NCBI GenBank assembly: GCA_006226345.1
Contig: SBHD01000009.1
Coordinates: 1-35,419, forward strand
Source: Bacteroidota bacterium
GTDB lineage: Bacteria; Bacteroidota; Bacteroidia; Chitinophagales; Saprospiraceae
Length of the DNA: 35,419 bases
Direction: 5' to 3'
Shown: piece after piece, positions 3,843 to 35,419 of the stretch
Layout of the letters: the number at the start of each line of letters is the position of its first letter
Numbering within the stretch: position 1 is the stretch's first letter
Position numbers and translations under genes: made by a program
The notes under the pieces: generated by a model
Told to the model about the DNA's origin: nothing
Seen by the model: only the letters and a program-made list of their open reading frames with translations
Databases searched by the model: none

Positions 3843-6128
3843 TTAGTTCCGCCGGTCCCGGCCACCGCCACCACCGCGATGTCCGCCGCCGCCGCCTCTG
3901 CGGTCGCGGTCGCCGCCACCTCTGCGGTCGCGGTCGCCGCCGCCTCTGCGGTCGCCGCCGCCACGGTTTCCGCCGCCGCCGGAGCGTTCGACATAACCTT
4001 CAGGCTTGGGCATCAGGGCCTTTACGGAAAGGCGCAGTTTACCGGTTTTCGGATCGTTTTCAAGCAATTTGACCTTGATCTCATCGCCTACTTTGTACAG
4101 ATCGGCCACGCTCGGGACGCGCTCGTAGCTTATCTCTGAAACGTGCAGGAGACCGCTTTTGCCTTTGAATTTGACAAAGCAACCGTATTCCTCTACCCGT
4201 TCCACCACACCGTCGTACACGTCGCCCGGCGTCGGTACGAACACGATATCCTGGATCTTGTCGTTTGCAGCATCCAGCGAGGCCTTATCCGGACCAAAGA
4301 TGGCCACGATACCGCCCTGCTCGTCTTCATCGATACTGATGGTCGTGCCGGTCTGGCGCTGCAGTTCCTGGATCACTTTACCACCCGGCCCGATCACGGC
4401 ACCAATGTATTCACGGTCGATACGGAACTCAACCATGCGCGGTGCATGCGGCTTGAGGTCTTCCCGCGGTGCTTCGAGCGCTTTGGCCATTTCGCCGAGA
4501 ATATGGAGCCGGCCGGCACGCGCCTGCATGAGTGCTTTTTCCAGCAGTTCATACGGCATGCCGTCGATCTTGATATCCATTTGGGTGCCGCAAATACCAT
4601 TGGCAGTACCAGTAACTTTAAAGTCCATATCGCCCAGTGCATCCTCGTCGCCGAGGATATCGGACAGAATGGAAACCCGGCCCTGATCATCGGCAATCGC
4701 GCCCATGGCGATACCGGCGATCGGGGCTTTGAGCGGTACGCCGCCATCCATCAGTGCAAGCGATCCGGCACACACCGTAGCCATGGAAGACGAACCGTTG
4801 GACTCCAGGATGTCCGATACCACCCGAACTGTGTACGGGTAGCTTTCCGGCAGCATCTTGCGGATGGAACGGCCCGCCAGGTTGGCGTGGCCCACTTCGC
4901 GGCGCCCGGGGCCCCGCATTGGCCGTACTTCACCAACGGAATACGGCGGGAAGTTGTAGTGCAGGATGAAATTGTCGTCGTAGTTGGTCAGGGCGTTATC
5001 GATGAGCGCCTGGTCCTGTTTGGTGCCCAGCGTCAGGGACGTGAGCGATTGGGTTTCGCCGCGGTTAAAGACGGCAGAACCGTGGGCAGACGGCAGATAG
5101 TCGACCTCGCACCAGATCGGACGCACCTCATCGGTTTTACGACCATCCAGGCGTTTGCCTTCCGACAGGATCACGTCGCGGATGACAAACTTCTTCAGTT
5201 TGTCAAAGTATTTTTCAGCCAGTTCGGTCCACTCTTCCATAAACTCTTCGCCAAACTCCCCGGTCATCGTTTCGATCAGGCGTTCGCGCATGGCTTCGAT
5301 GGCATCCCGGCGCGTGCTCTTGTCGCTGGCGCTGCGGGCAAGCGTATACAGCTCGTCTTTGCAGTGCTTTTCCACGATGGTTTTCAGGTCATCGTTTTCC
5401 TTGATCTCCGGCAACGGCCGTTTGATCAGGGCTTTTTCACCGACCAGTTCAGCCAGGCGCTCCTGGGCTTCGATCTGCACACGGATCGCTTCGTGGCCGA
5501 TCTTGAGGATCTCGATCAGTTCGGTTTCCTGGCACTCTTTGGCTTCACCTTCCACCATGGTGATGTCGTGTTTCGTGGCGGCTACGATGAAATCCATATC
5601 GGCGCGTTCCAGATCGGCGCGGTTGGGATTGACCACGTACTGGCCGTCGATCCGGGCAACCCGGACTTCGGAGAACAGTGCTTCCACCGGAATATCGCTG
5701 GTAGCGACAGCAGCGGAGCAGGCCAGTCCGGCGAGGGCATCCGGCATGACATCCTTATCGGCGGAGATCAGGTTGATGATCACCTGTGTTTCATTCATGT
5801 AGCCATCCGGGAAGAGCGGGCGCAGGGCGCGATCGACCAGGCGGCTGATCAGAATCTCATAGTCCGACAAGCGAGCCTCCCGGCGAAAGAAGTTGCCCGG
5901 GATACGGCCGGCTGCAGCGAATTTTTCCTGATAATCCACGGAAAGAGGGAAGAAAGGCTGGCCTTCTTTGGCCTTGCGGGCGCTCACGACAGTTGCAATA
6001 AGCATCGTGTTGCCCATACGCACGACGACGCTACCGTCGGCCTGCGTGGCGAGTTTGCCCGTTTCCAGCGTCACTTCCCGGCCATCGGGAAGGCTAAACG
6101 AGGTACGGAGCGGGATTTGTTTTCCCAT
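3843..6128 (-). CDS. pnp: Polyribonucleotide nucleotidyltransferase (PNPase) with Arg/Gly-rich tail
   Basis: This 761-residue phosphorolytic 3'-5' exoribonuclease works in mRNA turnover and forms a trimeric ring. Domains in order: first RNase PH core, an all-helical linker (about 240-315), and a second RNase PH core with the catalytic GDEDALGDMDFK motif at 493-504 (predicted metal-binding/catalytic D496 and D502). A KH domain follows at about 563-634 (I-G-P-G-G at 579-583) and an S1 domain at about 635-705. Residues 716-761 form an unusual tail made almost only of Gly, Arg and Asp, encoded by a 24-bp tandem repeat; this is an RGG-type RNA-binding tract absent from the E. coli enzyme. The gene follows rpsO, the classical rpsO-pnp order, but a terminator and a probable separate promoter lie between them. 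Confidence 0.97.
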   Translation of the reverse strand: MGKQIPLRTSFSLPDGREVTLETGKLATQADGSVVVRMGNTMLIATVVSARKAKEGQPFFPLSVDYQEKFAAAGRIPGNFFRREARLSDYEILISRLVDRALRPLFPDGYMNETQVIINLISADKDVMPDALAGLACSAAVATSDIPVEALFSEVRVARIDGQYVVNPNRADLERADMDFIVAATKHDITMVEGEAKECQETELIEILKIGHEAIRVQIEAQERLAELVGEKALIKRPLPEIKENDDLKTIVEKHCKDELYTLARSASDKSTRRDAIEAMRERLIETMTGEFGEEFMEEWTELAEKYFDKLKKFVIRDVILSEGKRLDGRKTDEVRPIWCEVDYLPSAHGSAVFNRGETQSLTSLTLGTKQDQALIDNALTNYDDNFILHYNFPPYSVGEVRPMRGPGRREVGHANLAGRSIRKMLPESYPYTVRVVSDILESNGSSSMATVCAGSLALMDGGVPLKAPIAGIAMGAIADDQGRVSILSDILGDEDALGDMDFKVTGTANGICGTQMDIKIDGMPYELLEKALMQARAGRLHILGEMAKALEAPREDLKPHAPRMVEFRIDREYIGAVIGPGGKVIQELQRQTGTTISIDEDEQGGIVAIFGPDKASLDAANDKIQDIVFVPTPGDVYDGVVERVEEYGCFVKFKGKSGLLHVSEISYERVPSVADLYKVGDEIKVKLLENDPKTGKLRLSVKALMPKPEGYVERSGGGGNRGGGDRRGGGDRDRRGGGDRDRRGGGGGHRGGGGGRDRRN
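3888..3953. repeat. 24-bp tandem repeat in the pnp tail
   Basis: There are two full 24-bp copies (3888-3911 and 3912-3935, one mismatch) and an 18-bp partial copy (3936-3953). Each full unit encodes eight residues of the type G-G-D-R-D-R-R-G. The repeat is in frame, so gain or loss of units would change only the length of the Arg/Gly tail. Confidence 0.85.
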
Positions 6129-6579: not shown

Positions 6580-6855
6580 TTACTTACGCAGGCCGAGTTT
6601 CTCGATCAATGCGCGGTATTTGAAAATGTCTTTCTTGGCGTAGTAAGACAGCAGCCGTTTACGCTGGCCAACCTTGTGCAGCAGCGAACGCCGCGTCGAG
6701 TGGTCTTTCTTGTTGGCACGCAGGTGTGCCGACAGGCTGTCGATCTGATACGTCAGGAGGGCTACCTGAACTTCCACGTTGCCCGTGTCTTTGTCGTTTT
6801 TGCCGTGTTCTTTTGTGATCTCGGCTACTTTCTCTTTTGAATAGTAAACTGCCAT
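6580..6855 (-). CDS. rpsO: 30S ribosomal protein S15
   Basis: The product is a 91-residue primary 16S rRNA-binding protein that helps nucleate the platform of the small subunit. The family signatures are evident: D-T-G-N-V-E-V-Q-V-A-L-L-T at about 22-34, the H-x-x-D-H-S-T-R-R-S-L-L-type helix at about 51-59 (here K-K-D-H-S-T-R-R-S-L-L), and the closing Y-R-A-L-I-E-K-L-G-L-R. Length is normal. It stands in front of pnp as in many bacteria but has its own strong terminator. A consensus promoter lies about 230 bp upstream, leaving a leader of some 220 nt that holds a large inverted array. S15 is a well-known autoregulator of its own message in several phyla, so this leader may be regulatory. Confidence 0.98.
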   Translation of the reverse strand: MAVYYSKEKVAEITKEHGKNDKDTGNVEVQVALLTYQIDSLSAHLRANKKDHSTRRSLLHKVGQRKRLLSYYAKKDIFKYRALIEKLGLRK

Positions 6856-8387: not shown

Positions 8388-11300
8388 TTACCGGACAAGT
8401 GTAATGTCGCCTTTGTACAACAATGTCCGGCCGTCGATCAGATCGATTTCGGCATAATACACGAACACTGCCGGGTTCATCAGTTTGTCATGATGGTAGC
8501 CATCCCAGCCGTGATCCGGGTCGTTGGGTTGGAAGTTGAAATCCTGGAAGACCATTGTGCCCCAGCGGTCAAAGATCTGGAAGGAGCGTATCTGAAGGAT
8601 CTGATCGCCGTCGGCAAAGATGAAGACCTTGTCGTTCTCGCCGTCCTCGTCCCAGGGTGAGAAGGCGTTCGGGATATAGATCCGGGGTTCGTTGTCAACG
8701 CGGATCAATACCCGGTCACTGGCACGACAACCGTCTATGCTGACAACGGTTACGGTATATTCCGTCGGCTTGAATGGTTTGGCGACAGGTTCGAGCAAGC
8801 TCAGAATATCTGTGCCGTTGAATGTCAGGCCTTCAAGCGGAGTCCAGATCACCGAATCGATTAAGGCAAGGGAATACCCGAATGGCAACTTTGCTTCCAG
8901 TTGCAACGAGTCTCCAAGTACTATGTCAAACTCCGGTGTGATGCTTACCGACGGGTCTGGTGCCTGCGGGACAACCAGTTTTTTGTAAAATTCACATCCA
9001 TTCGCATCCTGGATCCATAGGTCGTAAGTGCCCGGAGCAATACTGCTGAAGTCAGGACTGGTGTTGAATGATTGCCCATTATTAATGGAATACAAATACG
9101 GTCCGTACCCACCGACTACCTGTTCAAAGGTTATGACGCCGTCATTGTCCTTACAGGTCGGCCGTGTCAGATCGAAGACGAAATCGGTCGGCACATTAGT
9201 CTCTACGAATACCTCTACATTATCCGTACTTGTACAACCATTGTTGTTATTGGTAACAAGCAGGCTGTAAACACCTGGCTCATTGACCGATGGGTTCAGT
9301 GAATTAGCGCCGGACAGGATGTTGCCTCCCGCCGTAGACCAGGCATAGCTGAACTGCGAACCGGTGGAAGCAAAGGCCTGCAAGGCAACTTCATCAATCG
9401 AACAGGTCAGTGTAAAGGGCGGTCCGGCCTCTGCGTTGGGGTGAACCGTATTCTGAGACACCTGCACGCTGCTGGTGCTGGTACAGCCGTTTACATTATT
9501 CAGGATGGTCAGCATGTAATTACCCGGTGCGTTGACGTTTGCCTGAATATTATCCTGATCACCTATGAAGTTGCCGTTCAGCGTTGTCCAGGCATAGGAG
9601 AAGTTCGGGCCTGCCGACGAGCCGGTACCGTTCAGGGTTACCTGCTGAACGGCGCAAGTCAGTTCCGGAGCATTGGCAATTGCGATGGTCGGCTCCTGAA
9701 TATCTTCTACCACCAGCACCTGGTCGGTAGACGTACAGCCATTGTCAGTATTCTGCACCAGCAGCGCATATCCACCCGGTGCCGCAATGGTGGGTGTCAG
9801 GGAGTTGTTGCCGGACAGGATCGCACCGTTAGGTGTTGTCCACTCATAGTAGTAAGCAATACCGCCACCCTGGCTGGAACCTGTTCCGTTCAGCTGAAGG
9901 GTTGTCAGGGCACAGGTCAGCGTCATGTTGGCGCCTGCATTGGCTACCGGAGGTGCGATATCCTGATCGACCACCACGTCGGAGGTTGTCGTGCAACCAT
10001 TATCCAGATTGGTGACCAGCAATGAGTAGGTGCCTGGCTGGTTGACGATAGGTTGCAGCGGATTGTTCAGACTGGTGAAGTTGCCGTTGGCTGTCGTCCA
10101 GTTGTACTGCACGTTACCGGTGGAGGTGCCGGCAGCGTTGATGGTAACATTCTTAACGAGGCAGGTCAGCGTGGCAGGCTCGGCCAGGGTGATCGTGGGA
10201 GCGTTCTGGTCTGCCAACACCTCTACGGCATCTGATGCCGTACAGCCGTTGTTTGTATTTGTTACGATCAGGGTATATGTGCCGATTGCACTTACTGCCG
10301 GTGCCAGGGTGTTGGCTCCACTGGCGATCACACCGTCCAGCGTCTGCCAGTTGTACAGGAAGTTGCCATTGGTAGTGACATCTCCGTTCAGTGTGATCGA
10401 CGACAAGGTACAGGTCAGGGTTTGCGGATTTCCGGCTTCAACACCCGGCGGCGCTATATCCTGATCGATCACTACGCTGGAATAGGAGATACAATTGTTG
10501 TTGTTGTTGGTGACTGCCAGTTGATAGGTTCCCGGCTGGTTAATAACCGGCACCAGAGATGTGCTGCCGCTAACGATATTACCTCCGCCCATGGTGGTCC
10601 AGAGGTAGCTAAACTCCGGTCCGGTACTGGAGTTGTTACCATTCAGCGTGAGCGTATTCACGGCACAGGTCAGGATGCCACCAAGCCCAGCTTCAGCAGT
10701 GGGGAAGTCGGCAGACTGGGTAATGCTGACCTGGTCTGTTGCGGTGCAACCATTTATGGTGTTCGTCACTGTCAGGAAATAGAACCCTGCACCATTCACC
10801 TCCGGATTCAGGATATTATTTGCAGTCAGGAAGTTGCCGGTATTGGTCGACCATTTATAGGTATAATTTGGCCCCATACTGGCGGTCGGGCTCAGAATGT
10901 AGCTGGTTTCCGTGCAGGTGAGCTGGAATCCCGGACCGGCATCAGCCATGGGTGCATCCATATCAATGGTAAGCGAAACATTATCTGTCGAAGTACAGCC
11001 GTTCACGGTATTGGTAACCACCAGGGAATACAGTCCGGGCTGGTCTACTACCGGGTGGGCGCTGTTGCCGCCGGAAACAATCCCCAGACCGGTCCAGGAA
11101 TAGGTGAACTGCGGACCAGTAGAACTGCCTGTCCCCCCAAGGGCGAGTTGTGGATTATAGCAGTTCAGGATATTGTCGGCACCGGCGTCGGCGACAGGTG
11201 GTTGAATGTCCTTCTGTACATTCACATTCTTAACGGAGGTACAGCCATTGTCGTTATTCGTGATCAGCAGGGTGTAACTACCGGGTTGATCAACAGTGGC

Positions 11301-14300
11301 TGTCAGGGTATTACTACCGGAAACGATGCCAGGTCCTGTCCAGTTGTATACAAAGTTGGCGCCGATACTGGATCCGGAGCCATTCAGATTGACCAGGCTG
11401 TTGTAGCAGTTCAATACATCAGGAGTAGCGATCAGTACCACCGGATCAGTGTCATCCTGGAGGATTTGCACAGAAGCAGCGCTGGTACAGCCGTTTTGTG
11501 TATTGGTTACGATGATCTGATAAGTGCCGGGTTCGTCCACCTCCGGATTGAGGATGTTGGCGGGGGGCAGGATATTGCCGCCGTTAATGGCTGACCATGC
11601 ATAGGTGAAATTTGTGCCCTGGCTGGAACCGTTTCCATCCAAAGTCAGGGACGGATTGGTACAGTTCAGCGTCTGGGTCTGACCTGCGTTTGCAACTGGC
11701 GGAATGATATCGTCATCCACCGTTACAGATGCACTTGTGGTACAACTGTTGTCCGTATTTGTCACCACTAACGTATATGTGCCGGCTAATCCAACTACCG
11801 GCTGCAAGGTGGTTGCGCCGGAAAGGATCTGGCCCGTTTGGGTGCCCCATTGGTACTGGAAGGTCGGTCCGGAGCTACTGCCGGTGCCGTTCAGTGTTTG
11901 CTGCGGTTGGGCGCAGGTGATCAGTGAAGGTGGCGCAATGGCTACGGTCGGCGGTGCCAGGTCTTCCTGTACTGTGGCAGAAGCACTCGTCGTACAGCCG
12001 TTGGAAATATTGGTCACTACCAGGGTGTACGTGCCTGCCTTCGTGATGGTCGGTTGAAGCGTGGTTGCGCCGGAAGCAATATTACCATTCGCAGTTGTCC
12101 ACTGGTATTGAAAGTTGGCACCCGAACTGGAGCCTGCTCCATTCAGCTGGATCGTAGGCGTCAGACAGTTGATTTCCCCTGGCGGGTTGACAATCGCCTT
12201 GGGTGCCGCAATATTTTGAGCAATTTGCGTGGAGCCTGTCGAAGTACAGCCATTGATCGTATTCGTTACCAGAAGGGTGTACGTACCCGGAGCATCTACA
12301 ATAACTGCAGGGGTGTTCGCCCCACTGACAATATTACCGTTGGGAGTGGATGTCCACTGATAGGTGATATTAGGGAGTACGATCGTAGCGGGGTCTCCCA
12401 ACTGGATCTGTGTAAGGTTACAGGTCAGCGTGCCCGGTGTTCCCGGGTTGACCACCGGCGGGATCGTATTCTGGGTGATCTGTACGGATGCGGAAGCCGT
12501 ACAGTTATTCGACAGGTTGGTGACCAGCAGCGAGTAGAACCCGGGCGCATTCGCCACGGGGGTCAGTGTATTAGCGCCGCTGACAATATTACCACCGCCG
12601 GAGGTGAGCCATAGGAAGCTGTACCCCGGGCCATTGGATGATGCCGTGCCATTAATCGTTACCGTCGAGTTGACACAGGTGATCTCATCGTTGACAATAG
12701 CGATCGCCGAGGGGTCGGTAAAGTCCAGCGGTACAAATACAGTGGCGTCGTCCGTACACCCGTTTTGGGTGTTGGTAACCACCAGGGTGTAGTTGCCCTC
12801 CTCCGTTACAATGGCGTTGGCACTGGCCTGTCCGGATTTGATATTGCCGTTTACAGTAGACCATTGATAGGAATACGTGCCACCTGCAGGCGATGCACTA
12901 CCGTTAAGGGTAACTTCCGATACGGTACAGGTCAATGTACCCGGAGGTGCGATGGATGCAGTCGGGGCTGCATTATTCAGATTAACCACAACCGCATCTG
13001 TTTGCGTACAGCCGGTGGCAGTATTGGTCACGAGTATCGTATAGGTGCCGGCAACGCCTACGGTGGGGGTCAGGGTATTGGCGCCACTGATTATGACACC
13101 TCCCGGAGAGGAAGACCACTGATAGGTAAAGTTCGGACCGGAGGATGAGCCGGTTCCGTCCAGTGTGGCGTTTGTAACGGCACAGGTTATCGTTTGTTGA
13201 GGCCCGGCTTCTGCTGTTGGCAGGGTGGTAAAGGCAAGTACCTCCACAGTATCCAGCGATACACAACCATTACTGGTGTTTTGTACCTGCAAGATATAGT
13301 TGCCGGCCTGGTTTACGACCGGGTTTAGCGTCGTGTCTCCACTAAGGATATTCCCGGGAGCGGCAGACCATTTGTAGACAAAATTGGCGCCTATGGATGA
13401 GTTGCTTGCATCCAGAGAAACCGTGGTAATGACACACGTCAGCGAGTCATCCACTGTTGCTTCTGCAACCGGTGGATCGAAATCCCCTGGCACATCTGCA
13501 TGGGTGGTGGTGGTACAGCCCGACTGGTCCGTTACTGTTACTGTATAAGTACCTGCCGCTAGTCCGGAAGGATCCTGTACGTTGGAGCCATTGCTCCACT
13601 GGTAGGTGTAGTTCGGGAAGCCGCCGGTGACATTCAGGTCGATGCTACCGATATTTGGGTTATAGCAATTTGTCCCAAGTACGGCCCCAACGGTAGGAGT
13701 CAGGGCATTTGGAGCAATGATCTGGAACGTCTCTGCATCTGTACATCCAAAGCCATCCGTGACAGTTACACTATAGGTGCCAGCAGGGAGGCTGATCGGA
13801 TCGGGGATATTGGGAATATTCACCGGGCCGACCCAGTTGTAATTATACGGGCCTTGTCCACCAATTACAAGTGTATTGATTGAACCGTTCGTAGAACTGG
13901 CACACACTATATTGGTTACTTCACCGGAGAGATCTAACGTGGACTCCTGAACCAGAATGGCCCCCTGACCGGGGCCCTCACATCCCGCCCCGTCTATAAC
14001 ATTGGTGATCTGATAGAGTCCGGGCTGATTGACTGTCAGGAAGTACGGGTTGTCCACGATGTCGTAGACCGGTGGCTGCGGGTCGCCATTCAGAGTGTAT
14101 TCAAGGGTGAACGGGCCGGAGCCGATAAAGTTAACCTTGATCAGGGCGTCCTGCCCAAGCTCGCATATTTGTGGAGCCGGAGGCAGTAATTGAGCAGCCG
14201 GCAATGGATTTACGATCACACGTGCAGTGGCGACCTTGGTTTTTCCACAGGCATCGGTGACGGTGACCCGTACGTTGGAAGACACTCCAACAAAAACAGT

Positions 14301-15968
14301 TGCGCTGGCGTCGGTAGAGCCGTTCTGCCACTGATAGGTGTACGGCGGTACGCCGTCCAGCACATCCACATTAACGGTAGCGGCACCCGGGCCACAGATC
14401 GTAGTGGTATCTGCCATGGCATCCAGTATGGGAAGATCTTCAATGATCAGGGTTTCCGTCGGATTCAGACAGGAACAGGGGTTGTTCAGGGTAATGATGA
14501 TAGTCTCCTGGCCTTCCAGGATAAGATCGTTCAGGATATTAACATTGAGCACATATTCAGACTGGCCCACCGGAATCACAATGACCGGAGGGATAAAGGA
14601 ATAGTCGGTGCCGGCTGTGGCCGAGCCGGTTACAGTGAATTGCACCGGCAAGGGTGAGCTGAGGTTGTTACCGATACGCTTGAAAACCAATTGTACGGTG
14701 CCACAGCCTTCATACACATCCTTATCGTCAGGGTTGCCGTCAACCACCCATTCCACACTTGCATTACCACCTGCATTAAACGAACCTTCATTGAGGAATA
14801 CAGCCGAATCCCAAACTCCATCACCTACATCCGCAATTTTTAGTTTAATGTGATAGGTCTGGCAGGCCTGTACGTTGGCGACAGCCGTAAATTTCCGGGT
14901 GAAGCCATCATACTGTACCTCATTCACGGCAGGCAGAAATGAAGGTTGCTGGCCACAAAGGTTGTTACTTGAGGCCGGCTGGTTATTTACATAGAAGCCG
15001 GAGTTGTTGATATGGTTGACGTTGTTGATCGCCACGGGGATCTGGGAAGCCGGGATAAGGGCGATGTTTTGCTGACCGCCCGGAATGCCGGGGCCCGAGA
15101 TAAAGAAGCCGAAAACGTCGTTATACTGTGTCCCGACATATTCACAGTATTCTTCAGATGCAAATACGAAGTTGAACGAAACCGGCGATTCGGTAGGTGT
15201 AAAGTCAAACTCGATATTGGCCATATCGAACAACGCACCATTGGTCAGGGTCTGCAGATCAGGGTCCGGAGTAGACACCCCGTAGCCTGCGCTGGCGCCA
15301 TCCTGGTCATTCGGACCGGGGGCAACGCTGATATCGCCGGTAGCCATGATAACACCGGAGGCAAATCCGATGTTGGTCAGACCATTGGAGAAGGTACCGA
15401 TCTGGCCGCCGTTCCCGGAGAATTGTACGTTGGTAATGTCGAAGCAGTCACCACCGATCAGGACATTCCGGACCAGGTCGTCGGCACTTTGTCCGCCGCT
15501 GACCTCCAGTACGGCCGAAACGGACTCCAGGTATTCCTGAAGGTCCTTTTTCTTACACGTTTTACAGATGATGGAAACGTAATGACGCGGTGGATTATCG
15601 GTATCCCAGGTACACGGATAATTGAATATAAACTGCATAGTGGCCTTATTGGCTACGAAAGTCAGTTCGCGGGCAACCGGGTCAAACGGATCATATTCAG
15701 TACCTGCATCCAAAGCCTGGGCAGTCGGCTGGCAGTCGCCTAGTGCCGGGTCATCCGGGATAATGATTGCGTACGACTCACCCGGAATGAGGTTTTCAAA
15801 CTGCATGATTTGCTGGGCGGACTTAGCCGAGAAAATATGCCGTTGCTGGTATGCATCCAGGATGACTGGCGTGGTACTGTCGTCAGGCCCGGTTTGCGCC
15901 AGCAAGGGCGTGGCCAGGAGACAGATCAAAAGCGATAAACTGTAGACGCGGGATGTAGAAAGGCACAT
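8388..15968 (-). CDS. Giant T9SS type B surface protein with 17 tandem Ig/PKD-like domains
   Basis: The protein has 2,526 residues from MCLSTSRVYSLS; an upstream ATG at 16073 would bury the signal peptide and is rejected. Order: signal peptide ending L-L-A-Q (about 25); a choice-of-anchor L-like region (about 165-400, with F-A-S-E-E-Y and N-D-V-F-G-F-F); a Calx-beta-like domain (about 425-510); SprB-type repeats with P-A-G-T-Y-S-V-T-V-T-D-x-x-G-C; 17 tandem domains of about 84 residues (about 832-2260), most with L-x-C near the start and N-G-C-T near the end; one more SprB-like repeat; and a 100-residue C-terminal gliding-motility/T9SS type B sorting domain (2427-2526, from E-P-R-I-Y-I-P-N-A-F-S-P). 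Secretion through T9SS to the cell surface and adhesion or matrix attachment are inferred from the architecture. The paired cysteines suggest one disulfide per domain. Confidence 0.93.
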   Translation of the reverse strand: MCLSTSRVYSLSLLICLLATPLLAQTGPDDSTTPVILDAYQQRHIFSAKSAQQIMQFENLIPGESYAIIIPDDPALGDCQPTAQALDAGTEYDPFDPVARELTFVANKATMQFIFNYPCTWDTDNPPRHYVSIICKTCKKKDLQEYLESVSAVLEVSGGQSADDLVRNVLIGGDCFDITNVQFSGNGGQIGTFSNGLTNIGFASGVIMATGDISVAPGPNDQDGASAGYGVSTPDPDLQTLTNGALFDMANIEFDFTPTESPVSFNFVFASEEYCEYVGTQYNDVFGFFISGPGIPGGQQNIALIPASQIPVAINNVNHINNSGFYVNNQPASSNNLCGQQPSFLPAVNEVQYDGFTRKFTAVANVQACQTYHIKLKIADVGDGVWDSAVFLNEGSFNAGGNASVEWVVDGNPDDKDVYEGCGTVQLVFKRIGNNLSSPLPVQFTVTGSATAGTDYSFIPPVIVIPVGQSEYVLNVNILNDLILEGQETIIITLNNPCSCLNPTETLIIEDLPILDAMADTTTICGPGAATVNVDVLDGVPPYTYQWQNGSTDASATVFVGVSSNVRVTVTDACGKTKVATARVIVNPLPAAQLLPPAPQICELGQDALIKVNFIGSGPFTLEYTLNGDPQPPVYDIVDNPYFLTVNQPGLYQITNVIDGAGCEGPGQGAILVQESTLDLSGEVTNIVCASSTNGSINTLVIGGQGPYNYNWVGPVNIPNIPDPISLPAGTYSVTVTDGFGCTDAETFQIIAPNALTPTVGAVLGTNCYNPNIGSIDLNVTGGFPNYTYQWSNGSNVQDPSGLAAGTYTVTVTDQSGCTTTTHADVPGDFDPPVAEATVDDSLTCVITTVSLDASNSSIGANFVYKWSAAPGNILSGDTTLNPVVNQAGNYILQVQNTSNGCVSLDTVEVLAFTTLPTAEAGPQQTITCAVTNATLDGTGSSSGPNFTYQWSSSPGGVIISGANTLTPTVGVAGTYTILVTNTATGCTQTDAVVVNLNNAAPTASIAPPGTLTCTVSEVTLNGSASPAGGTYSYQWSTVNGNIKSGQASANAIVTEEGNYTLVVTNTQNGCTDDATVFVPLDFTDPSAIAIVNDEITCVNSTVTINGTASSNGPGYSFLWLTSGGGNIVSGANTLTPVANAPGFYSLLVTNLSNNCTASASVQITQNTIPPVVNPGTPGTLTCNLTQIQLGDPATIVLPNITYQWTSTPNGNIVSGANTPAVIVDAPGTYTLLVTNTINGCTSTGSTQIAQNIAAPKAIVNPPGEINCLTPTIQLNGAGSSSGANFQYQWTTANGNIASGATTLQPTITKAGTYTLVVTNISNGCTTSASATVQEDLAPPTVAIAPPSLITCAQPQQTLNGTGSSSGPTFQYQWGTQTGQILSGATTLQPVVGLAGTYTLVVTNTDNSCTTSASVTVDDDIIPPVANAGQTQTLNCTNPSLTLDGNGSSQGTNFTYAWSAINGGNILPPANILNPEVDEPGTYQIIVTNTQNGCTSAASVQILQDDTDPVVLIATPDVLNCYNSLVNLNGSGSSIGANFVYNWTGPGIVSGSNTLTATVDQPGSYTLLITNNDNGCTSVKNVNVQKDIQPPVADAGADNILNCYNPQLALGGTGSSTGPQFTYSWTGLGIVSGGNSAHPVVDQPGLYSLVVTNTVNGCTSTDNVSLTIDMDAPMADAGPGFQLTCTETSYILSPTASMGPNYTYKWSTNTGNFLTANNILNPEVNGAGFYFLTVTNTINGCTATDQVSITQSADFPTAEAGLGGILTCAVNTLTLNGNNSSTGPEFSYLWTTMGGGNIVSGSTSLVPVINQPGTYQLAVTNNNNNCISYSSVVIDQDIAPPGVEAGNPQTLTCTLSSITLNGDVTTNGNFLYNWQTLDGVIASGANTLAPAVSAIGTYTLIVTNTNNGCTASDAVEVLADQNAPTITLAEPATLTCLVKNVTINAAGTSTGNVQYNWTTANGNFTSLNNPLQPIVNQPGTYSLLVTNLDNGCTTTSDVVVDQDIAPPVANAGANMTLTCALTTLQLNGTGSSQGGGIAYYYEWTTPNGAILSGNNSLTPTIAAPGGYALLVQNTDNGCTSTDQVLVVEDIQEPTIAIANAPELTCAVQQVTLNGTGSSAGPNFSYAWTTLNGNFIGDQDNIQANVNAPGNYMLTILNNVNGCTSTSSVQVSQNTVHPNAEAGPPFTLTCSIDEVALQAFASTGSQFSYAWSTAGGNILSGANSLNPSVNEPGVYSLLVTNNNNGCTSTDNVEVFVETNVPTDFVFDLTRPTCKDNDGVITFEQVVGGYGPYLYSINNGQSFNTSPDFSSIAPGTYDLWIQDANGCEFYKKLVVPQAPDPSVSITPEFDIVLGDSLQLEAKLPFGYSLALIDSVIWTPLEGLTFNGTDILSLLEPVAKPFKPTEYTVTVVSIDGCRASDRVLIRVDNEPRIYIPNAFSPWDEDGENDKVFIFADGDQILQIRSFQIFDRWGTMVFQDFNFQPNDPDHGWDGYHHDKLMNPAVFVYYAEIDLIDGRTLLYKGDITLVR
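9190..13475 (-). repeat. Tandem array of 17 domain repeats, about 250 bp each
   Basis: Seventeen consecutive repeats of about 82-86 codons lie within the giant gene. Shared features per unit: an L-T-C or L-N-C at about residue 10, L-N-G-x-G-S-S near 20, Y-x-W near 30, G-N-I-x-S-G-A-N-T-L near 40, P-G-T-Y-x-L-x-V-T-N near 55 and N-G-C-T near 67. Copies are diverged at the DNA level rather than identical, indicating old duplications. Boundaries are approximate. Confidence 0.9.
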
Positions 15969-16573
15969 ACAAGTCGAGTTTAGTGTTGTAAGCCTGATTA
16001 TTGTTTGAGTCAGTGCCGGCGGTTGCCGCGGTATGACCGGATAGAGTTTGTCAAAATAAGTATTAAGATACACTTTTTAGGGTAAACGCTGCATCTGCAT
16101 TACCTCAAAATTGTGCATGCCCGGATGAACAGGCAAAATTTTGCTACTGAGCAGGGAAATTTTCCTGCTCGGGGGGAACCATTAAAAATGAAACAAGCGC
16201 ATAGACGGGATTTCAATTCAGGACGGATTATATACAGGAGTAACGGAAATATGGCTAAATCGGTCTTCTGCGTTGTCAGGAGTAGTAAATATCAGTCATA
16301 CAGTGTTGAGAATAAACACGTTGTATCAAGAGGTGTATGAAAATGCATATCACCTGGCATTATATACCTTTTAATGCTGCAATGATAGAAAATTTTCTTG
16401 TGACGAAGGTGGGTTTTAACAAAAATGTGGACGTATTCTAGGTGGTTTTGGCCGATTCTGTGAGCCCGCGGTCCGGATGGCCACTGATTGTTTGGCGGGC
16501 AACTGGATTATCCTCCAGACCCGGCGGAATCGCGGGTGGCTACACATTTTTTTATGGATTGCTTGTCAAAGAG
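15969..16573. other. Gene-free divergent region between the giant adhesin and corA
   Basis: No convincing gene is seen. The only open frame of note (75 codons, 16113-16340) has no recognisable product. A weak -7-like TTATTTTG on the minus strand (16052-16059) could serve the adhesin gene. Two adjacent palindromes lie at 16133-16170. The right part is AT-rich. Confidence 0.5.
16133..16170. promoter_or_regulatory. Two adjacent palindromes in the divergent intergenic region
   Basis: GCAAAATTTTGC (16133-16144) is a perfect 12-bp palindrome. Four bases later GAGCAGGGAAA/TTTTCCTGCTC (16149-16170) is a 22-bp palindrome with one G-T mismatch and no loop. Spacing and lack of a loop suggest protein-binding sites rather than RNA hairpins. 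Function is unknown. Confidence 0.4.
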
Positions 16574-23301: not shown

Positions 23302-23993
23302 GATTGGTTTATCCGGTTCAGGAATTAGAAAGGTTGAATAGGCTTGCAGATCAAAGATGCGATGTGCGCGCTGGTTTTTCATCCCGGGAATACGGTATTT
23401 TGCCATTACAGATTTACCGGGAGGATGCCGGAACACCCGGCTGTTGTGTGCAAATGATGCGGATACTGATACCGAAAATTTTTTCCACAGTTCTTCAGAG
23501 GGTTTCCACATATAAAAAGCCATTCCCTTTTTTCCTCTTTTTCAGGAGGTTAAGTTCTTCAAATTCTACCGGACCCAGCCAGGTAGCCGGTTAGGGGTAA
23601 AAAATACTAACATAAGTTATCCACATTGTTAGTAACAAGGGCTTGTTTTTTCATGTATTGATAATCAACAGATTATAAAAGTTATTAACATTATGTGGAA
23701 AACTTACAAACCCGCTAACTAAAAAATCTCTACTTTTGTTAGCACTTCTGCCAGGCATATGGCAGCTCCGCCACTGGGTTCGTTCTGTAATCGCTTGCAG
23801 CAAAAAACAGTTCGGGCTCAAATTGCAATCCATGTCCCTTCACATTCCGGGTATTTGTGCTTTCGATCGGATTGATCGACGTACAAATTTCTGTGCCGGA
23901 AATCAGCATGCTGTGCTATAACCGGAGTGGGGGATAGGATGCTCTGAAACAGACATCAATTCTATCATCATAAACCTGCATATTGATTTACAA
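23302..23993. other. Long gene-free region; candidate replication origin
   Basis: This is the largest spacer in the window with no gene, and it lies at the switch from minus-strand to plus-strand genes. Its middle part (about 23600-23735) is clearly AT-rich compared with the surrounding GC-rich DNA. DnaA-box-like 9-mers (consensus TTWTNCACA): TTTTCCACA at 23481-23489, GTTTCCACA at 23502-23510 (one mismatch), TTATCCACA at 23617-23625 (perfect), TTATTAACA at 23682-23690 (one mismatch), and TTTTCCACA on the minus strand at 23694-23702. The perfect box is flanked by an inverted repeat TACTAAC (23605-23611) / GTTAGTA (23628-23634). Interpretation as oriC is inference; a DnaA-responsive nrdB promoter is the main alternative. 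Confidence 0.5.
23714..23743 (+). promoter_or_regulatory. Possible nrdB promoter inside an inverted repeat
   Basis: TACTTTTG (23731-23738) is a perfect Bacteroidota -7 element about 255 bp upstream of nrdB. It lies within the arms of an inverted repeat GCTAAC (23714-23719) / GTTAGC (23738-23743). No clear TTG -33 element is seen. The repeat shares its TAAC/GTTA core with the one around the perfect DnaA box. Confidence 0.45.
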
Positions 23994-24980
23994 ATGGTAA
24001 AAGAAACAGCAACAGTCGAGCCTATCCTGGCGGAGAATCCCGATCGTTTTGTCCTGTTACCGATCAAGTATCCGAAGATCTGGGAGTGGTATAAAAAAGC
24101 CGAGGCATCGTTTTGGACAGCCGAAGAGATCGACCTGGTCCAGGACTTGCAAGACTGGGACAACAAACTCAACGACAACGAACGGCATTTCATCAAGCAT
24201 GTGCTGGCTTTCTTTGCCGCCAGTGACGGGATCGTGAACGAAAACCTGGTCCTCAACTTCATGCGGGAAATCCAGATCCCGGAGGCACGGTGTTTTTACG
24301 GGTTCCAGATCGCGATTGAGAACATCCATTCGGAGGTATATTCCCTGTTGATCGACACCTATATAAAGGACCCCAAGGAAAAGGACTTTTTGTTCCACGC
24401 TCTTCAAAACCTGGACTGCGTATCCAAAAAGGGAAACTGGGCACTGAAATGGATTGAAAATGCGCCCACGTTCGCCCATCGCCTGATCGCCTTTGCCGCC
24501 GTGGAGGGGATTTTCTTCTCCGGTTCTTTCTGTTCGATCTTCTGGCTCAAAAAGCGCGGACTGATGCCCGGGCTCGCATTCTCCAACGAACTGATCAGCC
24601 GGGACGAGGGTATGCATTGCGACTTTGCATGCCTGTTGTATTCCATGCTGAAAAACAAACTGGACCCCAAAGAGGTCGAGGCGATCATCACGGAAGCCGT
24701 GGTCTTTGAAAAGGAGTTCGTTACCGATGCGCTTCCGGTTTCCCTGATTGGAATGAATGCTGATCTGATGAACCAGTATATCGAGTTCGTGGCGGACCGC
24801 CTTTTGGTTTCGCTCGGAAACGAAAAGGTATATGGCACAGCGAACCCGTTCCCGTGGATGGACATGATCTCAATCCAGGGCAAGACCAACTTCTTTGAGA
24901 AGCGGGTAGGCGATTACCAGAAGGCCGGCGTAATGACCAGCCGTGAAGAACAGCAGTTCACTACAGATGCCGATTTTTAG
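23994..24980 (+). CDS. nrdB: Class Ia ribonucleotide reductase, small (radical) subunit
   Basis: The 328-residue subunit houses the di-iron centre and tyrosyl radical that start NDP reduction in the large subunit. All ligands are present by alignment from memory with mouse R2: D78, E109, H112, E171, E205 and H208; the radical tyrosine is Y116 in E-N-I-H-S-E-V-Y. The stretch [10 protein letters not shown] and the G-L-M-P-G-L[12 protein letters not shown] block are very like the eukaryotic enzyme. The C-terminus T-T-D-A-D-F matches the peptide that docks to the large subunit. The partner nrdA lies 1.9 kb downstream, separated by three other genes. The AT-rich region with DnaA boxes lies immediately upstream. 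Confidence 0.97.
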
Positions 24981-26913: not shown

Positions 26914-29328
26914 ATGCATGTAATCAAACGCTCCGGACGCAAAGAGAACGTGTCATTCGATAAGATCACGGCACGCCTGCGCAAACTATGCTACGGGCTG
27001 GACACCAGCTACGTCAACATCATCGAAGTATCGAAAAAGGTCATTATGGGCCTGTACGACGGTGTGACCACTGTCGAACTCGATAACTTGGCTGCTGAAA
27101 CCGCTGCCACTATGGCCACCATCCATCCGGATTATGCTAAAATGGCTGCCCGGATCGCTGTCAGCAACCTGCACAAGGAAACCGACAAGTCGTTCAGCAA
27201 AGTTGTACAGCTGCTGTACAAATATGTCGACCCCAAAACCGGGGACCGCGCCGGCCTGATCGGCGAGGACACCTACAAGGTCGTGCAGAAATACAAAGAC
27301 CGGCTGGATAGCTCCATTATTTACGACCGCGATTTTGAATTTGATTACTTCGGTTTCAAGACCCTCGAGCGTTCCTACCTGATGCGGATGGATGGCAAGG
27401 TGGTCGAACGCCCCCAGCACATGTTCATGCGCGTGGCTGTTGGTATTCATGGGGAAGATATCGAAGCGGCTATCGAAACATACAACCTGATGAGCGAGCG
27501 GTGGTTTATCCATGCCACTCCCACGCTCTTTAATGCTGGCTCTCCCAAACCACAGCTATCGTCCTGCTTCCTGCTGAGCATGACGGAGGACTCGATCAAC
27601 GGTATTTTCGAAACGCTTAAGCGTTGCGCCCTGATCTCCCAGAGCGCCGGTGGTATCGGACTGAGTATTCACAATGTCCGCGCCACAGGATCGTACATCA
27701 AAGGTACTGGCGGTACGTCCAACGGTATTATCCCCATGTTGCGGGTGTTCAATGATTCGGCCCGTTATGTCGATCAGGGTGGTGGTAAGCGTAAAGGGGC
27801 ATTCGCCGTGTACCTGGAGCCCTGGCATGCCGATATTTTTGAATTCCTGGAGTTGAAGAAAAACCACGGTAAGGAAGAGATGCGCGCCCGCGACCTGTTC
27901 TACGCCATGTGGATCTGCGACCTGTTCATGGAACGGGTCAAAGAAGATGCCGAGTGGTCGCTGTTCTGCCCGAATGAAGCACCGGGCCTGTTCGACGTGT
28001 ATGGCGGCGAATTTGAGGCCCTGTACCATAAATACGAGCAGGAGGGCCGCGCCCGCAAGACGGTAAAAGCCCGCGACCTGTGGAATGCGATCCTGGAAAG
28101 TCAGATCGAGACCGGTACGCCCTACATCCTGTACAAGGACGCCGCCAACCGGAAGAGCAATCAGCAGAACCTGGGTACTATCCGGTCGTCCAATCTGTGC
28201 ACCGAGATCATTGAATATACCGCTCCGGATGAGGTTGCGGTATGTAACCTGGCCAGTATCGCCCTGCCGAAGTTCGTTAAAGACGGGGTGTATGACTTCA
28301 AACGGCTCTATGAAATCACCCGCGTGGTCACCCGCAACCTGAACAAGGTGATCGATATTAACTACTACCCGATCCCGGAGGCCCATCGTTCCAACATGCG
28401 CCACCGCCCGATCGGCCTGGGCGTACAGGGTTTGGCTGATGCCTTTATCCTGATGCGTATGGCTTTTGATTCGCCGGAAGCCCGCCAGCTGAACAAGGAT
28501 ATTTTTGAAACGATCTATTTCGCTGCCATGACGGAAAGTTGTGCCCTGGCGGAAAAAGACGGTGCCTATGAAACGTTCCCGGGCTCACCGCTCAGCAAAG
28601 GTCAGTTCCAGTTTGACCTATGGGGTGTTCAGCCGTCGGATCGCTGGGATTGGGAAAACCTGCGCAAACAGGTAACCAAGCACGGCGCCCGTAATTCCCT
28701 GCTGGTGGCGCCGATGCCTACAGCCAGTACGAGCCAGATCCTGGGCAATACCGAATGTTTCGAACCCTACACCTCCAACCTGTACACCCGCCGTACGCTT
28801 GCCGGTGAGCATATTGTCGTGAACAAGTACCTGATGCACGACCTGGTGCGCCTGGGCCTGTGGAACGAAGAAATGCGCGAAGCCATCATGGCAGCCAATG
28901 GTTCCGTACAGGGTATTGAAGATATCCCGGAAGAGATCCGGGCTATGTATAAGACGGCATACGAACTCAGTCAGAAAGTTATCCTCGACATGGCTGCCGA
29001 CCGCGGCGCCTACATCTGCCAAAGCCAATCCCTGAATGTGTTCATGGAAGCACCGACTTTTGCCAAGTTGTCCTCCATGCACTTCTACGCCTGGCAGAAA
29101 GGCCTGAAAACAGGTATGTACTACCTGCGCTCCAAGGCAGCAACCGACCCGATCAAGTTTACGCTCAGCGACAAGCACCAGCAGAAGTTCGTGGCCAACA
29201 AGGTCACCAACGAAGCCGTAGTCAAAGTAGAAAAAGAGGCGCCGCAGATGTCTGCCCTGACACCCGACCAGGTAGAAGGCAAGATCTGCAGCCTCGACGA
29301 TCCGGACTGCGAAGCGTGCTCCGCGTAA
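26914..29328 (+). CDS. nrdA: Class Ia ribonucleotide reductase, large (catalytic) subunit
   Basis: This 804-residue subunit reduces NDPs to dNDPs. Residues 1-92 form an ATP-cone ([15 protein letters not shown]), the overall activity site for ATP/dATP control. The catalytic residues fall at C218 (S-S-C-F-L-L), N427, C429 (thiyl radical, N-L-C-T-E), E431 and C444 ([11 protein letters not shown]); from memory these are the same numbers as in mammalian R1. The radical-transfer tyrosine pair is in K-T-G-M-Y-Y-L-R. The C-terminal tail has the redox pair C-E-A-C, preceded by another cysteine. It is separated from nrdB by a terminator and three genes. No clear promoter is visible in the 69-bp spacer upstream, so it may be transcribed with the OMP gene. 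Confidence 0.97.
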
Positions 29329-32228: not shown

Positions 32229-32981
32229 TTAAACTCCCTTGAGAAAACGGTTGAAATGCCGCACGAAATTGTCCAGTTTCTGGGCGGAGACGTCAATTGT
32301 GGTATTATTGATGAGGTGGACTTTTCCGGTGCGACCGACACGTTCGTAGCGGCGCACGTAGCTGAGGTTGACCAGAAAACTGTGGTGGGTGCGACAGAAA
32401 AGTGCGTCAGGGAGTTCGGATTCGACTTCTTTCAGGTTTTTATATGCAGAATACCGGTCGAACTTACCCTCGTGCAGGGTGTAGAAGTTTGTGCAGGATC
32501 CGTCGGCCTGGCAGTAGACCAGATCGGTGTGTCGCACGACGATATTGCCTTTGCGCATATCGCTGAGTAAAAGGCCGCGGTGTTGCGGCGTGGATGTGAC
32601 CGGGCTTGCGGCAGACCGGGCAATAGCGATTTGTACCGCCTGGACGAGTTCGGCAGTTTTATATGGCTTGACCAGATACGCCCAGGGTTGGACGTCATTA
32701 ATTGCTTTTATAGCATATTGGGCATGGGCAGTAGTGAATATAACCCCAAAATCAAGGTGCCTGGTGCGGTCCAGGAAATCAAAGCCATTGCCGTAGGGTG
32801 GCATTTCAATATCCAGGAAAACCACTTCCGGTTGGTATTGTTCTGCGGAAAGCACGCCTTGCTCAACACTGTTGGCCACATGGGCTATGTTCACCATCGG
32901 GCAGTATTCTTTGAGCATACCCCGCAGGGTTTTGGCGGCGCTGGCTTCATCATCAATGATAATGGCGTTAATCCGTTTCAT
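32229..32981 (-). CDS. LytTR-family response regulator
   Basis: This 250-residue transcription factor is the output of a two-component system. The receiver domain spans 1-125: acidic pair D10-D11, phospho-acceptor D57 in V-F-L-D-I-E-M-P, T84-T85 in I-F-T-T-A-H-A, and lysine of L-V-K-P-Y-K near 106. A linker follows, then a LytTR DNA-binding domain (about 145-250) with L-V-Y-C-Q-A-D-G-S-C-T-N-F-Y and F-C-R-T-H-H-S-F-L-V-N-L-S-Y-V. Its ATG overlaps the end of the kinase gene by 4 bp, so the two are translationally coupled. It converges on the interrupted receptor gene with 12 bp between them. Its target genes cannot be told from the sequence. Confidence 0.95.
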   Translation of the reverse strand: MKRINAIIIDDEASAAKTLRGMLKEYCPMVNIAHVANSVEQGVLSAEQYQPEVVFLDIEMPPYGNGFDFLDRTRHLDFGVIFTTAHAQYAIKAINDVQPWAYLVKPYKTAELVQAVQIAIARSAASPVTSTPQHRGLLLSDMRKGNIVVRHTDLVYCQADGSCTNFYTLHEGKFDRYSAYKNLKEVESELPDALFCRTHHSFLVNLSYVRRYERVGRTGKVHLINNTTIDVSAQKLDNFVRHFNRFLKGV

Positions 32982-35419
32982 GCGTGTTTGTTGTATTCCT
33001 TGATTACGGATTTTTGTTGTTTATCCAATATTTTCTGGCGAGCCAGGGCGTGGTTTATTCTGGAGGTATTGAACGATACGGTAACCTTGGTTCCGGTGGA
33101 AAGGGGATCGGTTTTTTGTAAATCGCAGACGGATAATTGCAGATCCAGATCGAAAAGTTGGTTCAGGACAGCTGCTTTATTTTGTAACATCCGTATGCCT
33201 TTGGATCTGTGTTTTTTCCCAACGCCGCGATTTTGATCGTGCTGTTTTGCATGAATCCCAGGACCATTATCTGTAATTGTGCAATAAATATAATCTCCAT
33301 CCTGGTGATAAGCGATGCTAATGCTGGAAATGCTGTCGGTTGCATTTCCATGGATAGTTGCGTTTTCCAGGATTGGCTGCAGAAATAGGGCGGGGAAGGC
33401 GAGGTCCCCCGGTATGGTATCGGCGCCGGAAATGGTGTATTCAAAGTGGGTATCGCCGTACCGAAGCTGGGCAAGTTCGAGGTAGTCTTTATGGTAAGCT
33501 ACCTCCTCGGAAAACGGGATAAAGGTTTGTTCGGAGTAGTCCAGCGTTTTACGCAGCAGTTGCGTAAAAGTGGCGTTGTAGATACTGGCCCTAGTTGGGC
33601 TGGGCGGGTAGAAAAAGCGTTGTATGGCATTGATTGAATTTCCGATAAAATGCGGGTTGATCTGTGCCTGTAGCGCGATCAGCCGGAGTTGGGCAACAAG
33701 GGCATTCATATCCCGGAGTTTGAGTTGTGTGCGGAAGAAGCGGTACACGCCGTATCCCGTCAACATCCAAATGCCCAGCCAAAACCAAAAGGTTTTAAAC
33801 CAGGGAGTGGGCATAACTACGGCCCATTCCCCAGGGAGTGGACTTCGGATACCATTTTGTGTGCATGCAGTTACCTGAAGTTTGTATTTGCCGGGCGGCA
33901 TGTGCACCCCGAAGTCCAGGCTGCTCTTGTATATCCGGGCGGTGTCTGTTTTGCCTTTAAAACCGCTTCCGATCCAGGTGAGCAGGTTATCGGTGGTTAG
34001 CCATTGCAGTGGAGGAAGGACTTCGGTAATCAAACAATCAAACCACAAATTACCCCGGCTTCTGTAATTGAGTCCGGCAAAATCCACTTCTACCAGAGAT
34101 GCTTCACCGGGTAATGTCGTCGTACGATTTTCTCCTGTTTCAGTTGGGAGGTGAATTTGCTGAATAGTGTCGTTTTGTTGATACCGAATACCGGTGATCA
34201 GAGTGGAGAAGCCTGCTATTGAAGCATCTGTATTGAGGAGCATGCGGGTAAGCCCGGTGGTAGTTGCAGCCCAAAGGGTATCCTGGTACACATAAATGGC
34301 GCGCACATCATCATTGGCAAGGCCATCATTATGATTGTATTTAATGAGATCCCAGGTAGTTGGGTTAACGCCAATTACCCCCTGATTGGTGGATAGCCAT
34401 AATTGTCCGCTGTTCTCCCGGAAGATGGCGTGGATATTATGCACGGGCTTGGGCAGAAAGTCATTTGCAGGTTGCACACTGATAACCTGACCGCCAGCGA
34501 CTTTAACTTTCAGCAGATCGGCCTCAGGAGTGGCCACCCAAAGGGTATTCGCCCCTCCGTTCTGAATGGCGATAATCCTGCTTTTCAAGCTTGGAAAAGT
34601 GTGTCCCCAATTCTTTTTAAAGCCATCTGCAGAAGTATATAGGCCATCTATACCACCTGCCCAGATCAGATTTTCAGAATCCGTTCCCAGCGCAGTAATG
34701 CGTTGTTCAAACCGTTCTTGTATCTGCTGGGTTTTCAGATCCAGGGTAAATAGCCTGGCTGATGTGCCACACCATATCAGGTTATCCTGTTTCAGCAGGA
34801 CTTTGGGGCTTCCGCCGAATCCCAAAGGTGTCGTTTCTCCGGACGCGGTAACAGCAAAAACGGCTTCATCGGTAAGCACATAATAATAATCGGGTGCTAT
34901 AGGTAAAATGCTCAGGATCCGGTTGTATCCATCGATAGATTCTAACTGATGGATCGTATGTTTCCCGTCTTGCAAGATATTCAGATTCCCTTCGTCATCA
35001 CCGAACAGGATCCGGCCTTTATCGTCCCGTATGACCGCAGACAGATTTTCTGAGAGCAATCCGTCTTTCTTATAATAACTGATCGGTGTGTTATGAGGTA
35101 ATCCATAAATCCCGTCGTCAAGTGTACAGAACCAGAAGGTGCCCTGGCGGTCTTCAAACATGTAGGTTGTTTTCTTCCCGGGGAGATATATTTTGGGATT
35201 GGATAGATCCCGATTGGGGTTATCAAAACAAATCGCTCCAAGTTTTGGGGAGCAGACCCAGAAGCGGCCGGAACGGTCGATAGAAATTCTGCCACTTATA
35301 TTGAATATAGTATCTATAATTTTTAATTTTTTGCCATTTAATTCGAGCAATACAATCTTGTCTCTAAAAGAATATAATATTTTGTCTTTATTTACTTCAA
35401 TACTCGTCAAGATAGCCGC
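32978..35419 (-). CDS. Two-component propeller sensor histidine kinase (LytS type), N-terminus missing
   Basis: The frame is open to the right edge, so the signal peptide and first blades lie outside; the apparent TTG start at 35410 is not trusted. Counting from it, residues 1-430 are Reg_prop-type beta-propeller repeats (W-F-C-T-L-D-D-G-I-Y-G-L, L-W-L-S-T-N-Q-G-V). A Y_Y_Y-like domain follows (about 445-530), then one transmembrane helix (about 540-559) and a His_kinase domain with H587 in Q-I-N-P-H-F. The ATPase N-box is L-Q-P-I-L-E-N-A (N683), with D-N-G-P-G at 714-718. The propeller would sense a ligand in the periplasm and pass phosphate to the LytTR regulator encoded next. The kinase stop overlaps the regulator start. 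Confidence 0.94.
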   Translation of the reverse strand, partial: AAILTSIEVNKDKILYSFRDKIVLLELNGKKLKIIDTIFNISGRISIDRSGRFWVCSPKLGAICFDNPNRDLSNPKIYLPGKKTTYMFEDRQGTFWFCTLDDGIYGLPHNTPISYYKKDGLLSENLSAVIRDDKGRILFGDDEGNLNILQDGKHTIHQLESIDGYNRILSILPIAPDYYYVLTDEAVFAVTASGETTPLGFGGSPKVLLKQDNLIWCGTSARLFTLDLKTQQIQERFEQRITALGTDSENLIWAGGIDGLYTSADGFKKNWGHTFPSLKSRIIAIQNGGANTLWVATPEADLLKVKVAGGQVISVQPANDFLPKPVHNIHAIFRENSGQLWLSTNQGVIGVNPTTWDLIKYNHNDGLANDDVRAIYVYQDTLWAATTTGLTRMLLNTDASIAGFSTLITGIRYQQNDTIQQIHLPTETGENRTTTLPGEASLVEVDFAGLNYRSRGNLWFDCLITEVLPPLQWLTTDNLLTWIGSGFKGKTDTARIYKSSLDFGVHMPPGKYKLQVTACTQNGIRSPLPGEWAVVMPTPWFKTFWFWLGIWMLTGYGVYRFFRTQLKLRDMNALVAQLRLIALQAQINPHFIGNSINAIQRFFYPPSPTRASIYNATFTQLLRKTLDYSEQTFIPFSEEVAYHKDYLELAQLRYGDTHFEYTISGADTIPGDLAFPALFLQPILENATIHGNATDSISSISIAYHQDGDYIYCTITDNGPGIHAKQHDQNRGVGKKHRSKGIRMLQNKAAVLNQLFDLDLQLSVCDLQKTDPLSTGTKVTVSFNTSRINHALARQKILDKQQKSVIKEYNKHA

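Follow-up and report, generated by a model that had tools for sequence, protein, structure and literature searches.

Does a cluster of DnaA boxes in front of a ribonucleotide reductase (RNR) gene mark the place where a chromosome starts to replicate, or does it control the supply of precursors for that replication? The question is raised by the spacer upstream of nrdB in the 35,419-nucleotide stretch of DNA that we analyzed (the window), which is one whole contig, C161, of a 5.2-Mb, 410-contig Saprospiraceae draft genome (G000). The original prediction took this spacer for a chromosomal origin and named DnaA control of nrdB as the alternative. That alternative is the best-supported explanation, since the boxes are conserved upstream of nrdB and tied to RNR genes. 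Judging from sequence comparison, we put the probability that they act as an operator through which DnaA controls the nrdB(-nrdA) promoter, and not as an origin, at about 0.83.

Results

A group of DnaA boxes precedes nrdB

The box TTWTCCACA occurs five times in the whole window against 0.59 expected, and none of 100 shuffles reached five. The intergenic region at 23303-23993 holds three exact boxes, all within 222 bp, where 0.03 is expected (0 of 5,000 shuffles reached three); its G+C content of 41.5% agrees with the AT-rich character claimed for it. All three boxes were found where the original prediction had placed them: the distal TTTTCCACA at 23481-23489 (plus strand), TTATCCACA at 23617-23625 (plus strand), and TGTGGAAAA at 23694-23702, which is the exact box TTTTCCACA read on the minus strand. 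Two one-mismatch boxes had also been claimed. We found only one, on the plus strand (GTTTCCACA, 23502-23510, one mismatch to TTWTCCACA); the sequence at 23682-23690 has two mismatches.

Four sequences form two pairs. Pair A (23617-23635, plus strand) consists of the exact TTATCCACA, a 1-bp gap, and a degenerate opposite arm, TGTTAGTAA, at 23627-23635. Pair B (23682-23702, plus strand) consists of TTATTAACA at 23682-23690, a 3-bp gap, and TGTGGAAAA. Each pair thus has one degenerate arm, and the boxes in both are convergent, unlike the head-to-tail form of E. coli. The two pairs start 65 bp apart. Between them lies the element TTGATAATCAACAGATTA (23658-23675, plus strand), whose position is conserved in relatives. 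It includes AATCAACAGATTA at 23663-23675, which we call IHF-like, as we do WATCAANNNNTTR below, by comparison with what we take to be the IHF consensus. Downstream, 28 bp after pair B, is TACTTTTG (23731-23738, plus strand), a candidate -7 element on the assumption that TAnnTTTG is the -7 consensus of Bacteroidota promoters. By itself, TAnnTTTG is not enriched in the window.

To the right of the spacer, nrdB (23994-24980, plus strand) encodes the 328-aa small subunit of class I RNR (Pfam Ribonuc_red_sm, E = 6e-118), and nrdA (26914-29328, plus strand; Pfam) encodes the large subunit with an ATP-cone. To the left, pnp (3843-6128) and an rpsO-like ORF (6580-6855, identified by eye) are on the minus strand, as the original prediction had it. 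The strand switch that it described is real but short: minus-strand genes lie to the left and the genes from nrdB to nrdA are on the plus strand, but the last gene of the window, a histidine kinase gene at 32978-35410, is again on the minus strand. Also on the minus strand are a 257-aa protein with an EAD11 effector-associated domain (2898-3671) and an ORF of 2,561 aa (8388-16073) with numerous similar repeats, recognized by eye, perhaps a secreted surface protein. A scan of the window against Rfam gave no match reaching the gathering score.

The replication origin likely lies at another locus

Since the genome of the window is a draft, from which no whole-replicon skew is computable, we used relatives for this analysis. 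Skew was sampled in members of the family in 20 stretches of 20 kb each, with finer stretches in two complete genomes, G062 and G127. In the window itself, the cumulative GC skew computed locally increases across 23-25 kb. The minimum expected by the original prediction was found at the nrdB boxes neither there nor in the two complete relatives.

In G062, a single contig of 7.51 Mb, the sampled skew is lowest between 2.27 and 2.63 Mb and highest at about 6.2 Mb. In the finer stretches the sign changes at about 2.349-2.350 Mb, and six exact boxes occur there within 1.7 kb. Two of the six, together with four one-mismatch boxes, are in the spacer between ctaA and the SOS-response-associated gene SRAP, and the remaining four are in or just beyond ctaA; parS-like sites follow at 2.364 Mb. 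The nrdB module of this genome is at 0.2975 Mb, 2.05 Mb from the spacer at the skew switch. Skew in G127 (7.31 Mb) is mostly negative to 365 kb, positive from 365 to 375, negative from 375 to 379, and then mostly positive, and because the sign alternates, the switch can be placed only within about 365-380 kb. The ctaA-SRAP spacer of G127, at 377.9-379.2 kb, holds 22 boxes within one mismatch, seven of them exact, and parS-like sites are found at 346-350 kb. The nrdB gene of G127, at 4.012 Mb, is preceded by two exact boxes but not by the module of pairs A and B; it is 3.63 Mb from the ctaA-SRAP spacer and approximately opposite to it.

The same arrangement is found in the genome of the window. 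On contig C264, a spacer enclosed by ctaA and SRAP (14411-15006; L180) carries seven boxes within one mismatch in 300 bp, two of them exact, with parS-like sites 2.6 and 3.6 kb away. Allowing up to one mismatch, parS-like sites in G000 are found only on C264, and none is on C161. We searched for these with what we take to be the parS consensus, which is also present in the box cluster of Saprospira grandis (G057; L067, NC_016940.1). That cluster, at 2.040-2.045 Mb, has nine exact boxes along with the parS-like sites; ctaA and SRAP were not found in the 20-kb stretch around it. Sampled skew in S. grandis is noisy, and no exact box precedes its nrdB at 0.955 Mb. G040, of the same genus as the window, shows a skew sign change beside ctaA and four one-mismatch boxes, with no exact box there and no SRAP match. 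None of the six query genes searched at the origin loci, ctaA and SRAP among them, matched the window. The ctaA-SRAP spacer on C264 is likely the true origin of this genome.

Other places were considered for the origin. Directly upstream of dnaB in G000, four exact boxes lie in 78 bp (C171:16431-16508; L081:9432-9509), two per strand and pointing apart. We set this cluster aside as the main candidate because the skew switch of G062 and G127 is at the ctaA-SRAP spacer and not at dnaB, and because the dnaB locus has no exact box in G057, G062, or G127. An origin beside dnaA was likewise rejected, the dnaA contig, C73, having no exact box. Exact-box clusters in G000 were taken from among the matches listed, 100 of 152 places, none after C250; for TTATCCACA alone, the list is complete at 38 places. 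At L165-L168 (G062 and G127), the match to the DnaB C-terminal domain is split by about 1 kb within one frame of 846-857 aa, which is intein-like.

For an origin at nrdB, with forks leaving both ways, speak the close-set exact boxes, the AT-rich spacer, and the strand switch, and clustered boxes in an AT-rich spacer are indeed a likeness to bacterial oriC. However, the skew switch, the parS-like sites, and the box-rich spacer enclosed by ctaA and SRAP in G000, G062, and G127 all lie elsewhere, and the boxes of the window follow nrdB, not ctaA-SRAP. We therefore reject this explanation as highly improbable; the central claim of the original prediction is not borne out.

Boxes recur upstream of nrdB in relatives

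We then compared the spacer in related genomes, using the best 80 nrdB loci (titled Saprospiraceae, Lewinella, Aureispira, and similar) and up to 600 bp before nrdB. Exact boxes numbered 182 in the 47.7 kb upstream of nrdB and 28 in the remaining 809 kb; a reversed-pattern control gave 5 and 16, respectively, in the same loci. One locus, L073, is on the same contig as L070 and was removed, leaving 79 regions, two of them shorter than 600 bp. (This contig, JAHDEO010000104.1, has nrdB matched on both strands; it is palindromic, perhaps an assembly artifact.) These 79 regions contain 180 exact boxes, compared to a mean of 1.65 and a maximum of 5 in 100 dinucleotide-keeping shuffles. An exact box is absent upstream of nrdB in 11 of the 79, including S. 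grandis.

The genes upstream of nrdB vary. Clustering the nearest upstream genes of 74 loci, the window and L073 included, gave 22 clusters, with the corA-like cluster accounting for 39; in 41 of 72 nrdB loci, a corA-like gene is found no more than 2.5 kb upstream. Since boxes precede nrdB both with and without this neighbor, they are tied to nrdB and not to the corA-like gene.

Two convergent pairs have a conserved geometry

We drew the geometry of the boxes from ten aligned loci and from 118 upstream regions searched for pairs: the window, the 79 loci, and 38 additional loci, 28 of which are outside the family. Pair A was searched as TTATCCACA-N-TGTGGAWAA, with a 1-bp gap, and pair B as TTATCCACA-NNN-TGTGGAWAA, with a 3-bp gap, each with up to three mismatches. 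Both pairs are present in 42 of the 118 regions, and their starts are 65 bp apart in 24, 64 bp in 17, and 75 bp in 1. These 42 are not independent events, because the sequences are related and three of the regions (L084, L085, and L091) repeat contigs already counted.

The spacer between the pairs is conserved as well. For this comparison we used 37 spacers, dropping L006 and the three repeated contigs and keeping only spacings of 60-70 bp. TGAWWWTCA is present in 20 of them, each time starting 23 bp before pair B, compared to 0.26 (maximum 4) in mononucleotide shuffles. The IHF-like WATCAANNNNTTR is found in 11 of the 37 (0.15 in shuffles) and a looser form in 23 (0.46 in shuffles). TAnnTTTG follows a box by 15-45 bp in 17 of 68 box-bearing nrdB loci, where 3.3 are expected; the commonest distance, 28 bp (10 cases), is that of the window.

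The 28 loci from outside the family include some distant homologues. Five of the 28 (L191, L204, L205, L212, and L213) have one or two exact boxes in the 600 bp upstream. None of the 28 has the module of pairs A and B, and we therefore claim it for the family only.

The pairs precede class I and class II RNR genes

We then looked for exact palindromes across 150 genomes of the family. With a 3-bp gap, the exact palindrome was found at 52 places, which belong to 48 genomes; its reversed control was found nowhere. Most of these sites (34 of 52) are 81-376 bp upstream of an nrdB match. Ten precede nrdJ, which encodes the B12-dependent class II RNR; all ten nrdJ match NCBIfam TIGR02504, with L261, a contig-end fragment, below the cutoff. 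One precedes another class I RNR-like operon, whose matches are below curated cutoffs, and seven are at no RNR gene. At that second class I RNR-like operon, an AdoCbl riboswitch (L246:2718-2853; 51.8 bits, gathering score 50) lies between the palindrome and the operon.

We counted 37 sites of the exact 1-bp-gap palindrome, spread over 36 of the 150 genomes: 25 before nrdB, 5 before nrdJ (G097, G132, G028, G078, and G067), and 7 at no recognized RNR gene. Three of these seven (G037, G063, and G001:C40) are less than 1 kb from a contig end, so that the adjoining gene may be cut off; the G037 site adjoins corA, and the nrdB of G037 begins another contig. Taken over the family, an exact pair precedes nrdB in 45 genomes and nrdJ in 12 of the 150, and any NrdB match is found in 124. 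Neither exact pair is present in 86, among them the genome of the window.

Sites lacking an RNR gene adjoin corA in G055, G058, and G073:C75, and further ones are in G099, G106, G073:C8, and G132:C112. In G026 and G131, the full module (L258:2969-3053 and L259:3008-3092) precedes a gene that we label SpoIIE/PP2C-like, that is, phosphatase-like, from below-cutoff matches of the G026 protein; neither genome has a close nrdB. These sites may be relics or chance occurrences, or they may point to a second role like that of datA or DARS.

Six loci (L251, L253, L255, L256, L260, and L264) have the order corA, pair or pairs, nrdJ, where other loci have corA, boxes, nrdB. This order suggests that class I and class II enzymes have been exchanged in place behind corA and the pairs.

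A model for NrdR finds no match in six genomes of the lineage

NrdR boxes resemble the module in being palindromic paired operators common to RNR genes of different classes, as described in a review (PMC4009431). Their sequence differs from that of the module, and none was found close to nrdB in the window. The NrdR model TIGR00244 matched none of six genomes, that of the window included, and found NrdR in 9 of 14 control genomes (Bacteroides ihuae was not among the nine). The same review has nearly all bacteria encoding NrdR, and a divergent NrdR missed by TIGR00244 is therefore possible.

Discussion

Control of an RNR promoter by DnaA is known already. DnaA of E. coli binds at nrdA and regulates it (PMC8203912, PMC11317965), and according to the latter it also binds at the class III gene nrdD. 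The likeness to the E. coli nrdAB promoter is that DnaA boxes lie close upstream of a class I RNR promoter, and Table 1 of PMC11317965 gives a double box at nrdA whose two boxes are separated by 3 bp. In E. coli, however, the boxes of a double box follow each other head-to-tail at 2-3 bp, whereas the Saprospiraceae pairs are convergent; here, moreover, two pairs set 64-65 bp apart flank a positioned motif, and they also precede class II nrdJ. We searched the literature on RNR or nrdJ with DnaA boxes, on Bacteroidetes origins, and on Saprospira, in titles and the first part of abstracts, and met no description of the module, neither of two convergent pairs in this arrangement nor of their occurrence before RNR genes of both classes.

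We propose that DnaA would bind both convergent pairs, A with its 1-bp gap and B with its 3-bp gap, and that an HU- or IHF-type protein would bend the DNA at the conserved motif between them and so join the two DnaA complexes. Pair B ends 28 bp upstream of the candidate -7 element of the putative promoter and adjoins the expected -33 element. From this position, bound DnaA could contact or exclude RNA polymerase. As to the sign of control, activation at moderate DnaA seems somewhat more likely than pure repression. Deoxynucleotide synthesis would then depend on how much DnaA there is or on its nucleotide state, and precursor supply would thereby be coupled to the initiation of replication in a lineage where NrdR was not found.

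Several observations stand against a DnaA operator: nrdB loci with no exact box (11 of 79), family genomes with neither exact pair (86 of 150), the sites with no RNR gene (including the full modules at the phosphatase-like gene), and the exact TAnnTTTG at its place after a box in only a quarter of the box-bearing loci (17 of 68). The alternatives fare worse. Chance or AT-richness has only the AT-rich spacer in its favor and, against the dinucleotide-keeping shuffles, has a negligible probability. Another regulator, for instance NrdR or some unknown one that acts on RNR genes through a similar palindrome, would fit the palindromic form of the pairs, which is usual for dimeric repressors, and the near-universal NrdR of PMC4009431 leaves room for a divergent one; but the searches for NrdR in six genomes and for its box near nrdB of the window were negative, and the half-site is the exact DnaA consensus, which is dense at the inferred origins too. 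We regard this as improbable. A more serious, though still unlikely, alternative is that the locus titrates DnaA or switches its nucleotide, with DnaA multimers on bent DNA changing the level of DnaA-ATP and the RNR gene being a mere neighbor. In the account of PMC5742627, the DnaA boxes of datA and DARS2 of E. coli are clustered, and an IHF site lies among or next to them; several boxes set at fixed spacing around an IHF-like motif may resemble this arrangement, and modules or pairs persist with no RNR gene in G026 and G131 and beside corA in G055, G058, and G073:C75. However, datA and DARS2 act on the nucleotide state of DnaA, whereas most exact pairs found here are tied to RNR genes, of both classes and with changing neighbors. 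Also, G062 and G127 differ in where nrdB lies with respect to the inferred origin, while datA is near oriC (PMC5742627).

Going beyond a DnaA operator at nrdB, one may consider that in the Saprospiraceae, apparently lacking NrdR, DnaA is the main regulator of RNR through a portable operator, kept when class II replaces class I in place, and that the copies with no RNR gene act as sensors of the DnaA level. This wider proposal, drawn from the arrangement of sites and genes, is tentative, at slightly less than even odds.

The analysis also yields a predicted origin, the ctaA-SRAP spacer, for several Saprospiraceae, though not for S. grandis, which is useful for estimates of replication rate from metagenomes. 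If DnaA does control these RNR genes, its coupling of deoxynucleotide supply to replication would be under selection at the level of operator geometry far from E. coli. This coupling would outlast a swap of the enzyme class, and it may stand in for NrdR.
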